Source of the DNA: Cytophagaceae bacterium
Lineage (GTDB): Bacteria > Bacteroidota > Bacteroidia > Cytophagales > Spirosomataceae
DNA length: 53,037 bases
Assembly: GCA_947464595.1 (NCBI GenBank)
Contig: CANHXO010000004.1
Coordinates: forward strand, 1-53,037
Direction: 5' to 3'
Of this stretch, positions 26,002 through 30,445 are shown one piece after another. A program made the translations under genes and the position numbers. The first letter of the stretch is position 1, and every line of letters starts with the position of its first letter. Under the pieces are notes generated by a model, which saw only the letters and a program-made list of their open reading frames with translations, was not told the DNA's origin and did no database searches.

Positions 26002-27114
26002 TTATAGTAATCCTTTAGTACTCGGCAAAGAATTTAAATTATTGATGTCTCTTTTAACTGCTAATTGAATTGATTTTGCAAATGCCTTAAAAATTGACTC
26101 GATTTTATGATGCTCATTCTCTCCATCTGCCTGAATATTTAAATTGCATTTGGCACCATCTGAAAAGGATTTAAAGAAGTGGCTGAACATTTCTGTTGGC
26201 ATTTCTCCAATCTTTTCTCTTTTAAATTCTGCCTTCCAAACCAGCCAGTTTCGACCAGAAAAATCTAAGGCTACTTGGGCTAAACAATCATCCATGGGCA
26301 ATAAAAATCCGTAGCGCGCTATGCCTTTCTTTTCACCTAAAGCCAAAGCAAATGCTTCCCCTAGTGCAATTCCAGTATCTTCGATGGTATGATGTTCGTC
26401 GATATGTAAATCGCCTTTGACTTGTATAGCGAGATCAAGATTACCATGTTTTGCAATTTGATCTAACATGTGATCAAAAAATCCTAATCCAGTTTGATTG
26501 CTTGCATGGCCTTTCCCATCTAAGTTTAAGTCAATGGAAATTTTAGTCTCATGCGTATTTCTAGTGTGATGAACCTGGCGCTGGGGCAATTTCAAAAATG
26601 CGTAAATGTCATTCCAATGTGAGGTTTGCAGCGCAGTAATTGATTTCAATTCAGTAGGAACCTCTAGGTCACCGATCAAAATTGCTCTTGAACCCAGGTT
26701 TTTTGCTAGCTGAATGTCCGTGATTCGGTCACCAATGACAATTGAATTTTTTAAATCATAATCGCCCGATAAGTAATCTCCCAATAATCCCAAACCGGGT
26801 TTTCTGGTCGGTAGGTTATCTTTTGCGAAAGATTTATCAATTAAAATATTGGAAAATACGATTCCTTCTGAGGATAAAATATCCAACATTTTATTTTGGG
26901 CTGGCCAAAATGTGTCTTCAGGAAATGATGAGGTACCTAGCCCATCTTGGTTAGTAACCATGACTAATTCAAAGTCTAATTCTTCATGGATCTTCTTTAA
27001 ATTCGATATAACATAGGGCAGAAAAGACAATTTTTCATAACTGTCAACTTGCAGGTCTGGTTGGGGCTCAATAATTAAAGTGCCATCCCGGTCTATGAAT
27101 AATACTTTCTTCAT
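26002..27114 (-). CDS. hisB: Bifunctional histidinol-phosphatase / imidazoleglycerol-phosphate dehydratase
   Basis: Two fused enzymes of histidine synthesis in 370 residues. Residues about 1-165 form a HAD phosphatase with nucleophile Asp8 and Asp10 in FIDRDGTL. Residues about 175-370 form IGP dehydratase with [16 protein letters not shown] and [16 protein letters not shown], which hold the manganese-binding His and Glu residues. The fusion is known in enterobacteria and Bacteroidota. No other his gene is present in the window, so this copy lies apart from any histidine operon visible here. Confidence 0.95.
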
Positions 27115-27200
27115 ATTACAAAGGTAATGAATGTAAAGTTTACAGCGAATAAAAGAAAAAAATATGCGTAAAATAATTCTTATATGTGCTCGAGTACTTG

Positions 27201-27208
27201 TAATTTTG
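27201..27208 (+). promoter_or_regulatory. -7 box that fixes the start of the DUF937-like gene
   Basis: TAATTTTG matches TAnnTTTG. Transcription would start near 27214, so the upstream in-frame ATG at 27184 could not be in the message, whereas the ATG at 27226 would have a leader of about 12 bases. Confidence 0.45.
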
Positions 27209-27225
27209 TATTTGAAATAAAAACT

Positions 27226-28470
27226 ATGGGTGAATTATTTGGTGTTATTCAAGAAGATTTACGCGGAAATGTGATTCGCAGAATCTCTTTATTTACTGGT
27301 GAGTCGGAACCCAAAGTGGAAGAGTTAATACCTGTCTGGGAGGCCATTATCTTAGGGGGTTTATTGAAACTAATTCGGAATCGAATTAGATTCAATGCAC
27401 TTTATAATTTTATCTTACAGAAATCCATGCCGAGCGTCGCGATTCAGGAGTTGCAGGCAGGTAACGCGACTAAATTACAATTAGAAGAGATTAGTCAATA
27501 TGGAGAAGGCCTAATTGGGATTCTCATTCCAGATAAGAAGAGTGCTATTGCGATGCTGATCTCAAGGGAATTAGGATGTAAAAGTTCGTCATTTTTGAAA
27601 GGTTTGAGTGTACTTTTTGGTTTATATGGCTTTAAATTAAAAGAAGAAGATTACGATGCATTAAAGGATTGGAAGTCTTTTGCGGAGTTTTTTATCTTAA
27701 AAAAAGGAGATTTTAGTATTTTATGTCCATCAAATTTACGTTTTGCGATTTCTGACATCCTATTACTTTCCGATGTATTAAAATTAGATCCTGAGGCTTT
27801 AGTCTATTTAACAGAAGATGCTAATCGAGATGATGTCAAAACAAAACATCTGATTTTTGATCAGAAAAATCTTTTATATATTGTTATAACGATCATATTA
27901 AGTGGTTTTACGCTTTGGTATACCTTATTTAGGCCCAGTACTGAATCCGAAATAACAGCGGACCTTGAAGAGGTAATCCCCATCGACAGTTTAAATAAGT
28001 TCAATGATAGTTTAACAAAAGCGGTCTTGGATTCTAATCGACTTAAGAATGATTCCCTTTTCACATTAACTTGGCCAGATGGCACTCAAAATGTGGTACC
28101 TACGAAGTCAATTTTAGTTGATTTACACACATATTTAACAGATTCAACTCAAACCTCACCGGTAGAACTTATTTGTGATGAACTTAGCTTTGATCCGAAT
28201 ACCGATTTATTAATGAAGCCAACGGATTATTTATTTAAGCAGCTTTCGAGCTATTTAAATAAATCAAAAAATGTCGATGTCCAGATTTTAGCAATTTCTA
28301 ATAAAGATGACAAATCATCCTTTAAACGTGCTTTTATTATTAAAAACCGCTTAGTGGGAGAAGGCCTTTCCTTTAAAAAAATTAGTGTGCAGCCTAGCGT
28401 AGAAAGTAACAATAACCAGGTTGATTCTCAAGTCAAATTTATATTTACTAAGCGTAATTTATTGAAATAA
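27226..28470 (+). CDS. DUF937-like / single TM / degenerate OmpA-like protein
   Basis: 414 residues. The N-terminal part (about 1-190) is helical and resembles DUF937 proteins (repeated short helical units such as [20 protein letters not shown]). One membrane helix follows ([19 protein letters not shown], about 209-227), then a low-complexity spacer, then about 120 residues with an OmpA C-terminal-like layout: [20 protein letters not shown], a [12 protein letters not shown] strand and a final [10 protein letters not shown] strand. The Asp and Arg residues that bind diaminopimelate in OmpA domains are not evident. The ATG at 27226 is chosen because a -7 promoter box lies between it and the upstream ATG. 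Function unknown; anchorage to the envelope is inference. Confidence 0.65.
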
Positions 28471-28503
28471 TACAATATATTAGGTTTATATAGATTAATA
28501 AGA

Positions 28504-28511
28504 TACTTTTG
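28504..28511 (+). promoter_or_regulatory. -7 box of the DEAD-box helicase promoter
   Basis: TACTTTTG matches TAnnTTTG. Predicted transcription begins at about 28518-28520, only a few bases before the structured leader starts at 28527, and gives a leader of about 120 bases. The -33 region is AT-rich but lacks a clear TTG. Confidence 0.5.
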
Positions 28512-28526
28512 TAATAAATAAGTACA

Positions 28527-28612
28527 AATACATCCGCACAAACTCTTTTACAGGTAATGTAAATCCCTTTCATTTTTAGGGCTATTGGCAAGAGTTAAAT
28601 TACGGATGTGTT
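28527..28612 (+). ncRNA. Structured 5' leader (cis-regulatory candidate) of DEAD-box helicase
   Basis: Three nested pairings can be drawn. The outer stem joins 28527-28536 with 28603-28612 (10 bp, one G-T pair). The middle stem joins AACTCTT (28541-28547) with AAGAGTT (28590-28596). The inner hairpin joins CCCT (28565-28568) with AGGG (28578-28581). A start codon directly followed by a stop (ATGTAA, 28557-28562) lies between the middle and inner stems. The element begins just after the predicted transcription start and ends 27 bases before the helicase ATG. A regulatory role, for example autoregulation by the helicase or a temperature response, is inference; I do not recognise it as a known RNA family. 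Confidence 0.5.
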
Positions 28613-28639
28613 CGGGCATCGTAATTAAAATATATCTAA

Positions 28640-30445
28640 ATGAGTGAAAAAATTCGCTTTGATTCGCTTCCTTTATCGGAAGGAATCCAAGCCGCAGTTA
28701 AAGAAATGGGCTTTGAATATGCTTCTCCCATTCAATCAGAAGCAATTCCATATGTAATGGAGGGTAGAGATGTTATCGGTCAGGCGCAAACAGGCACTGG
28801 TAAAACGGCAGCATTTGGTATTCCTATGATCGAACATATTGTTCCCTTTGAGAAATTTGTTCAAGCGATCATCTTATGTCCTACCCGTGAATTAGCGGTT
28901 CAGGTTTCAGAGGAAATGAGAAAATTATCCAAATTCACGAAAGGTGTTTGGGTTACAACCGTTTATGGAGGTGATTCGATTGACCGACAAATCAAATCCC
29001 TAAAAGCTGGGGCAAATATTGTCGTAGGTACACCAGGACGTGTGATAGATTTAATTGAGCGCCGCGCGTTAAAATTAAATCAGACTTCTATGGTGGTATT
29101 GGATGAGGCGGATGAAATGCTTGATATGGGTTTTCGTGAAGATATTGAAAGTATTTTGGAAGAAATACCCAATGAGCGTCAAACGGTTTTATTCTCAGCG
29201 ACCATGTCTAAGCCTATTTTGGCTTTGACAAATCGTTTTTTAACGGATCCTAAATTAGTTAAGGTGGTTAAGAATGAGATTACTAACGTCAACATTGAGC
29301 AATTGTATTTTGACGTCAAAGGAAGAGCTAAAATGGAGGTTACTACTCGTTTGATCGATTTTTATGCCTTAAAATTAGTATTGATTTTCTGTAATCAGAA
29401 AAAGCGTGTTGACGAGGTTGTTGAAGAGTTAGCGTTAAGAGGTTATGCAGCTGAAGGCTTGCATGGCGATTTAAGGCAAAGTCAGCGTACTCAAGTGATG
29501 AATCGTTTTCGTTCAGGAAATGTCAGTTTTTTAGTGGCGACAGATGTCGCGGCTCGTGGATTGGATGTTGAAAATGTGGATGCTGTAATTAATTATGACA
29601 TTCCATTGGACGAAGAATATTATGTGCACCGGATCGGTAGAACGGGACGTGCAGGTAAATTTGGTAAAGCTTTTACCTTGGTAGTGGGTTCTGAACGTAA
29701 TCGTTTACGTGAAATTATGAACTATACTAAAGTTAAAATAGATAAGGGCGTAATTCCAACTTTCTCTGATGTGGTAGGGATTAAAAAAGGCATGTTTATT
29801 GAACGTGTCGCTAGCACGATTGCAGAGGGCGATTTGGATTTATTTGCTGATGCGTTACCTAACTTGCAACATGCTGGATTTACCGTAGATCAGATTGTAA
29901 GTGCTCTAGTTAAATTGAGCATGGGAGTTCAGAAAAATGAGTTTGGGGATGAAAATTTAGAGGGTGAGCTTGAACGTCAATCACGCAAATATGGCCGTGA
30001 TGAGCGCGGGGGTGGAGGATTTAGAGATCGCAATGATCGTGGGGGAGACCGTGATAGCCGAAGAGGTGCTGGTCGCTTTGATCGCGATTCTCGTGGTGGT
30101 GGAGATCGAGGCGGACGTTTTGAAAGAGGAAACGATCGTGATCGTTCATCAGCTCCTAGAGGCCCTCGCATGGATCGTGAAGGGAAACCTTATCGTTCCG
30201 ATGAAAATATGGTTCGAATGTTTGTCAACATTGGATTTGATGAAAAAATATCTCCTTCTAATATTGTAGGTGCCTTCGCGGGTGAGTCTGGAATTCCAGG
30301 AAATGTATTAGGTCAAATTCAAATTGAGAATAAACGTACCTATGTCGATGTGCCTAAGGAGTATGCCAATGTGGTTTTAGAAAAAATGGCTGGAGCCCAA
30401 ATAAAGGGTAAAAGAGTTTTAGTTGAAATTGCTAAACCTGCTTAG
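28640..30445 (+). CDS. deaD: DEAD-box ATP-dependent RNA helicase (DeaD/CsdA-like) with RG-rich insert
   Basis: 601 residues. RecA-like domain 1 has a Q-motif near 7-35, AQTGTGKT (49-56), PTRELA (81-86), TPGR (131-134), DEAD (155-158) and SAT (186-188). Domain 2 has HRIGRTGRAG (330-339). After about 345-440, which resembles the DeaD dimerisation region, comes a low-complexity segment (about 449-511) dominated by Arg, Gly and Asp. It ends in a DbpA-type RNA-binding domain (about 524-599, MVRMFVNIGFDEKI to KGKRVLVEIAKP). Such proteins unwind rRNA and mRNA in ribosome assembly and cold adaptation. It is a single-gene unit with its own promoter, structured leader and terminator. Confidence 0.94.
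   Translation: MSEKIRFDSLPLSEGIQAAVKEMGFEYASPIQSEAIPYVMEGRDVIGQAQTGTGKTAAFGIPMIEHIVPFEKFVQAIILCPTRELAVQVSEEMRKLSKFTKGVWVTTVYGGDSIDRQIKSLKAGANIVVGTPGRVIDLIERRALKLNQTSMVVLDEADEMLDMGFREDIESILEEIPNERQTVLFSATMSKPILALTNRFLTDPKLVKVVKNEITNVNIEQLYFDVKGRAKMEVTTRLIDFYALKLVLIFCNQKKRVDEVVEELALRGYAAEGLHGDLRQSQRTQVMNRFRSGNVSFLVATDVAARGLDVENVDAVINYDIPLDEEYYVHRIGRTGRAGKFGKAFTLVVGSERNRLREIMNYTKVKIDKGVIPTFSDVVGIKKGMFIERVASTIAEGDLDLFADALPNLQHAGFTVDQIVSALVKLSMGVQKNEFGDENLEGELERQSRKYGRDERGGGGFRDRNDRGGDRDSRRGAGRFDRDSRGGGDRGGRFERGNDRDRSSAPRGPRMDREGKPYRSDENMVRMFVNIGFDEKISPSNIVGAFAGESGIPGNVLGQIQIENKRTYVDVPKEYANVVLEKMAGAQIKGKRVLVEIAKPA

Follow-up and report, generated by a model that had tools for sequence, protein, structure and literature searches.

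In Caulobacter crescentus, the rhlE mRNA carries a 186-nt 5′ UTR with several predicted stem-loops. Removal of this UTR lowers reporter expression and the helicase mutant expresses more, findings that the authors, in the part of the report available, read as possible control of the helicase's own mRNA (PMC5472812). The leader described here is likewise the structured 5′ UTR of a DEAD-box helicase mRNA, but it comes from another phylum and precedes a helicase of another class, and the available part of the rhlE account presents predicted stem-loops and neither a covarying family nor mutually exclusive states. Leaders of the nuclease genes for RNase J and RNase E (H. pylori rnj, E. coli rne) offer a comparison in regulation, as an RNA-processing enzyme is thought, in the accessible portion of the source, to be controlled via its own 5′ UTR (PMC5874925). 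There the regulated gene encodes a nuclease, and the parallel drawn here is one of regulation. Leaders of the cspA cold-shock type are long and have two possible folds, the choice between which is driven by temperature. The present leader is similarly long and can be drawn in two folds; unlike them, it shows no predicted temperature flip in the DNA studied here. To our knowledge, the way in which bacteria adjust the amounts of their RNA helicases is still poorly understood, particularly in Bacteroidota.

The window analyzed here, a stretch of 53,037 nucleotides from a Cytophagaceae bacterium, contains a gene for a 601-residue DEAD-box RNA helicase preceded by a folded leader that is real and larger than first described. 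The initial annotation described three nested pairings of 10, 7 and 4 bp; all three are present in the minimum-energy fold of positions 28504-28639, as an outer stem P1, a middle stem P2 and an inner helix, accompanied by an additional 5-bp stem (28548-28552/28558-28562). A competing hairpin, P1*, was absent from that description; it re-uses the 3′ strand of P1 and therefore competes with it. Comparison of related sequences shows that approximately the first 110 nt of the predicted mRNA make up an RNA element that is conserved in the genus of the window and in 18 of the 25 other genera sampled from its family. The features of the locus are as follows.

27184-28470: upstream gene.
28467-28475, plus strand: A+T-rich motif ATAATACAA, a possible upstream promoter element, with a loose form in relatives.
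28504-28511, plus strand: match TACTTTTG to the Bacteroidota −7 box TAnnTTTG, supported by the consensus and by fixed spacing in relatives.
28523-28612, plus strand: match to covariance model R1 at 35.8 bits, the model having been built with this leader included.
28527-28536, plus strand: 5′ strand of P1, the outer stem of state I (AAUACAUCCG; minimum-energy fold and compensatory changes).
28541-28547, plus strand: 5′ strand of P2 (AACUCUU; fold and compensatory changes).
28548-28552, plus strand: 5′ strand of the small stem, pairing with 28558-28562 (fold; variable part of the leader).
28557-28562, plus strand: ATG-TAA start-stop, overlapping the 3′ arm of the small stem.
28565-28581, plus strand: inner hairpin CCCU/AGGG, 28565-28568 with 28578-28581 (minimum-energy fold).
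28580-28589, plus strand: conserved junction segment GGCTATTGGC (mean column identity 0.92 in the genus set).
28590-28596, plus strand: 3′ strand of P2 (AAGAGUU; fold and compensatory changes).
28598-28608, plus strand: 5′ strand of P1*, AAUUAC-[G]-GAUG, overlapping the 3′ strand of P1 (compensatory changes, genus-set conservation).
28603-28612, plus strand: 3′ strand of P1 (CGGAUGUGUU; fold, compensatory changes, genus-set conservation).
28617-28626, plus strand: 3′ strand of P1*, CAUC-GUAAUU, 13 nt before the start codon (compensatory changes, genus-set conservation).
28640-30445, plus strand: the DEAD-box RNA helicase, presumed to be the regulated gene, with DEAD, Helicase_C and C-terminal DbpA RNA-binding domains.

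Further upstream, a 370-residue gene on the minus strand (26002-27114) matches an IGPD domain and a HAD-type phosphatase, a pair that we take to be that of an ordinary bifunctional HisB. Taken by itself, the fold of the leader is a marginal signal: its energy is −24.6 kcal/mol compared with a mean of −19.4 (sd 3.04) for shuffled versions, which corresponds to a z-score of −1.71, and 10 of 200 shuffles are at least as stable. The significance of the structure accordingly comes from the comparative evidence. The start-stop element that had been pointed out within the leader does exist as ATG-TAA, but it is conserved in just 8 of the 32 leaders of the genus set, and its interpretation as an upstream open reading frame was rejected on this ground.

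Orthologues of the helicase were identified by protein search in at least 213 of the 222 genomes of family f1 with E-values of 1e-100 or better. This family is the grouping used in the searches; NCBI taxonomy places Aquirufa in Flectobacillaceae and Larkinella in Spirosomataceae. Leaders, 700 nt upstream in each case, were collected for 60 of the 213 orthologues, the better-scoring among the matches listed, and cover 25 genera besides that of the window, so that 26 of 36 genera are represented when the latter is included. Both P1 words (CATCC and GGATG, 40-220 nt apart) occur in 45 of the 60 fetched leaders, in those 18 of 25 genera, and the element is present in named relatives such as Flectobacillus, Larkinella and Dyadobacter. 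One or both words are missing from view in the remaining 15 (L124, L142, L143, L150, L151, L154-L158, L160-L162, L165 and L170), of which L142, L143 and L165 have coding sequence upstream, so that the leaders themselves could be outside the region in view. Judged by eye only, L150 and L151 are variants and the genera g7, g20, g31 and g33 are divergent; L137, L138, L151, L160 and L162 were omitted from the counts and L150 was kept. The top-scoring isolate among the matches listed is Aquirufa antheringensis, whose helicase matches at 92% over 451 residues, so that the window probably belongs to a member of Aquirufa. A separate observation concerns L044, whose contig bears the title of a Spirosoma fluviale metagenome-assembled genome: the helicase fragment encoded there shares 99% identity with residues 321-601 of the window protein, and the record may therefore be mislabelled or mixed.

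Compensatory change was assessed in alignments that were trimmed and padded with N and whose register was set manually from the stems, the main one (A2) comprising 31 leaders out of 42 distinct rows. All six pairs of P2 have changed on both sides in A2, as have two of the ten pairs of P1, the core of which is invariant partly because the leaders were selected by the P1 words. For P1 and P2 together, 8 of 16 pairs are double-changed and a covariation score of 0.201 is obtained, whereas shuffles give 0.096 and none of 500 scores as high; versions of the helices slid along the alignment score between 0.037 and 0.107. Among the 16 leaders of the window's own group (A4), 93% of the cells of P1 and P2 are paired and, again, 8 of 16 pairs are double-changed. 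Both stems contain G-U and U-G pairs, as is expected of RNA, while the interior between the strands of P2 ranges from 25 to 170 nt and is poorly conserved. The other group of leaders (A3, 20 sequences) behaves differently: its P1 and P2 have three double-changed pairs against 2.8 expected, a count reached by 321 of 500 shuffles, with a score that is nonetheless above that of the shuffles. This group has a 5-bp hairpin at the 5′ end, P0, which carries an AUCC loop and is made from the 5′ strand of P1; four of its five pairs are double-changed and its score of 0.474, compared with 0.224, is equalled in 0 of 500 shuffles, the number of double-changed pairs being matched by 59 of 500. Kinship among the sequences can lift such scores above those of shuffles without any structure. 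In addition, the register of P2 was set manually for five leaders in A2 (L016, L135, L139, L146, L159) and six in A4 (L112, L114-L117, L123), and the hand registration of A2-A4 introduces a bias towards structure that the slid controls answer only in part. The pairing is conserved across genera and carries compensatory changes between them, which bears out the initial annotation's proposal of a candidate cis-RNA element in front of a DEAD-box helicase. These comparisons indicate a conserved cis-RNA element whose structure is maintained by compensatory change across species and which occupies a consistent place before orthologous genes; judged from the alignments, we regard it as very nearly certain that the leader is a conserved structured RNA.

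The competing hairpin shows evidence of the same kind. In the 16 leaders of the window's group, 4 of the 10 pairs of P1* are double-changed and the score is 0.225 against 0.060, with 0 of 500 shuffles as high, although 41 of 500 match the count of double-changed pairs. The stretch that forms P1* is the best-conserved part of the leader in the genus set of 32, with a mean column identity of 0.96-1.00, compared with 0.37-0.56 in the variable loop. In several other genera, a downstream strand is predicted to recapture the 3′ strand of P2, of P1 or of both. When P1 is either forced or forbidden, the predicted energies differ by −5.5 to +4.7 kcal/mol among 31 leaders, so that by prediction the two states lie within 5.5 kcal/mol of each other in all 31. 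Tests in which the downstream sequence was shuffled are mixed. In 17 of 19 genera, the native sequence favours the competing state more than its shuffles do on average, g5 and g18 showing the opposite. Just 7 of 31 leaders have a probability of downstream pairing by CGGAUGU that exceeds 90 of 100 shuffles, and in the window leader 18 of 100 shuffles reach its value. For complementarity of the strand downstream, 7 of the 19 genera tested reach 0.05, and g15, g18 and g29 show none. In the window itself, P1 is predicted to be favoured over the competing state by 4.2 kcal/mol at 37 °C and 4.5 kcal/mol at 10 °C, a margin large enough that P1* may never form unaided and so nearly constant that it gives no support to a control by temperature. 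The mutually exclusive helices are well supported within the window's group and plausible beyond it. Actual switching between the exclusive states would seem slightly more probable than its opposite.

The position of the element is defined by the promoter. What we take to be the consensus of the Bacteroidota −7 box, TAnnTTTG, is matched at 28504-28511, which places the inferred transcription start at approximately 28517-28520. This is the single such box between 28450 and 28640 and also the sole one between the upstream gene and the helicase. A start downstream of 28612, a possibility attached to the first description of the leader, finds no box past 28511 in the same scan, the start itself being a prediction. 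The box is in view in 43 of the 45 leaders that have both P1 words, and in every one of these it begins 24-30 nt upstream of the P1 CATCC; the accepted spacing was 15-42 nt, a rule that cost no leader, and the other two boxes are out of view. By comparison, CATCC lies from approximately 95 to 690 nt upstream of the start of the matched protein in the fetched leaders, the true start codon being closer than the matched start in genera whose proteins have N-terminal extensions. The constant spacing from the box to P1, combined with the variable distance to the coding start, shows that the element is placed relative to the promoter. Of 57 related leaders, 31 have a loose version of the A+T-rich motif (ATAATACAA or AAAATACAA) at a distance of 30-110 nt upstream of CATCC, compared with 1.3% of random 80-mers of the window; the motif could be an upstream promoter element.

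The leader appears to be specific to this gene. Rfam 15 gives no match in the window, and a permissive search of eight loci gave 13 matches, none in a leader, of which only one exceeds its gathering score (SNORD36, L078 positions 343-411, E-value 0.089); that no named family had been recognized here is consistent with this result. Among the titles and abstract openings listed by searches of the open-access literature, none names the leader element. The covariance model R1, built from alignment A2 and therefore not independent in its matches to the leaders of A2, has one match in the window's genome at E-values up to 1, and 84 matches in 80 of the 222 genomes of the family. Among the matches listed, 62 of the 69 that could be placed by helicase coordinates are at the helicase, in further agreement with the proposed cis-acting element; the remaining seven lie away from it and are each 25-56 nt long, and 5 of the other 15 were put at the helicase from fetched loci. 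In a sample of the order, R1 matches 29 of 390 genomes, 25 of them in the family and all of these at the helicase, while the fetched DNA of the four outside the family contains no close relative of the helicase. No full-length match was placed at another gene among the family and order-sample matches that were placed. With its filters off, R1 yields just 20 weak matches in the 60 fetched leaders, at no more than 17 bits, in several places and on both strands; compared with the 45 leaders called positive, this makes it a weak detector, and it missed all listed genomes of genus g36.

A second, unrelated leader sequence precedes the orthologous helicase in family f19, the named members of which, e.g. 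Algoriphagus, belong to Cyclobacteriaceae in NCBI taxonomy. This leader (CCGTG..TTTCCTTACTGTCGCTTG..CATGG..AGTAAGGAAA) occupies the last ~100 nt before the helicase and is highly conserved (loci L046, L047, L049, L058, L077, L078, L099 and L229-L258). A model built from seven such leaders, R2, matches 43 of 390 genomes of the order, all in f19, and the helicase adjoins the match in all 30 loci fetched. The stem UUUCCUUACU/AGUAAGGAAA has no double changes in the seven leaders; a second pairing that crosses it has 3 of 14 pairs double-changed, a count reached by 386 of 500 shuffles, none of which reaches its score. Like the leader of the window, the f19 leader is conserved, precedes an orthologous helicase and contains two pairings that either exclude each other or combine in a pseudoknot; unlike it, it sits immediately before the start codon. 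Four Hymenobacter loci (L081, L082, L085, L089) have last ~150-nt segments before the helicase that resemble one another, e.g. GTCGCTGAATCCGCTGTTTTCAGAGC, and may represent a third type of leader.

The helicase itself falls below the cut-offs of its best-matching NCBIfam helicase models, including CshA, DbpA and CsdA, and it carries a DbpA RNA-binding domain, so that its original assignment to the DeaD/CsdA type is too specific. Seven matches to the DEAD domain occur in the window's genome, which is 74% complete. Proteins of 425-601 residues account for four of these, and the window helicase is the sole carrier of a DbpA domain among the seven. The DbpA domain of E. coli binds hairpin 92 of 23S rRNA, according to the available portion of the source (PMC7973409). 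A mimic of this hairpin in the leader was considered and rejected. The UGUUCG present in the P1* loop of the window varies between genera; TGTTCG is present in 11 of 60 upstream regions, in four of these at P1* but shifted into the stem, and the loop of hairpin 92 is CGGCTGTTCGCCG in the 23S rRNA of a member of the genus. When a single 23S locus was searched for 16 leader words, 14 gave no match, and the two that did, CATCCG and GGGCATC, lie at least 1,325 nt upstream of hairpin 92; no convincing copy of the hairpin was found in the leaders.

How the element might act can be proposed from its layout. State I consists of P1 and P2, the former being a closing stem of long range that encloses the latter, a hairpin with covariation. 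It is opposed by helices that exclude P1: the window's group has P1* in this role, the other group has P0, and in some genera a downstream strand can also recapture the 3′ strand of P1 or P2. Since the position of the element follows the promoter rather than the coding start, an effect on the fate of the mRNA 5′ end, through decay or a co-transcriptional choice of states, is favoured over the hiding of a ribosome site everywhere; in the window, the proximity of P1* to the AUG, 13 nt away, could also hinder translation. Overall, the arrangement suggests a 5′-terminal, perhaps bistable cis-regulatory leader that sets the amount of helicase and is possibly autoregulatory, a reading to which we give an even chance. 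The most likely input would be free helicase that binds or unwinds P1/P2 and thereby lowers its own expression; this autoregulation would be the most economical input and has a parallel in the Caulobacter rhlE leader, and we advance it tentatively, at somewhat below an even prospect. An attenuator with an intrinsic terminator was discarded on inspection, as P1* is followed by AAAATATATC and not by the U run that should accompany the hairpin.

An alternative, although rather unlikely, explanation is that P1/P2 is a static cap that protects the message against 5′-end-dependent decay and that the alternative helices are by-products. It would account for a position that is fixed near the promoter box while the distance to the coding start varies, for the dominance of the P1 state in the window at every computed temperature, and for the mixed outcome of the downstream-competitor shuffle tests. 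Yet the P1* stretch is the best-conserved one in the genus set and shows compensatory changes, and P0, which also excludes P1, covaries strongly; a plain cap needs neither. The exclusive helices at the 5′ end and the junction segment conserved in the genus set would also suit a ligand-binding riboswitch, or the binding site of another protein, with the same two-state layout, but the interior of P2, variable in length and poorly conserved, does not resemble the aptamer core expected, and no full-length match was placed at a second gene, all of which makes this alternative improbable.

Even less probable is an RNA thermosensor that adjusts the helicase level in the cold. DEAD-box helicases are cold-induced in other bacteria, as described in the accessible part of the rhlE report (PMC5472812), and four of the 31 leaders (L112, L126, L147 and L164) are predicted to prefer one state at 10 °C and the other at 37 °C. 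These four reversals, however, go in different directions, the gap between states shifts by less than ~2 kcal/mol with temperature in 22 of 31 leaders, and the predicted occupancy of P1 in the window is 1.00 from 4 to 37 °C. Finally, the exactly inverted copies ACATCCG and CGGATGT could be read as a DNA operator, the repeat being a transcription-factor site and not RNA structure. The copies start 54-198 nt apart and downstream of the promoter box, and the nested P2 is double-changed in six of six pairs and tolerates G-U, which renders this reading hardly credible.

The leader is absent from Rfam 15 and would add an RNA family lacking there. It is a rather speculative extension of the regulatory reading that the leader directly senses free helicase activity, the helicase flipping the 5′ end of its own mRNA between two folds conserved in evolution, and that two families of Cytophagales evolved unrelated leaders with the same logic in front of the same DbpA-domain helicase. 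A leader that is common to many genera, lies close to the promoter and contains mutually exclusive helices is a concrete object for mutation, and compensatory mutants could show whether a helicase reads its own message.
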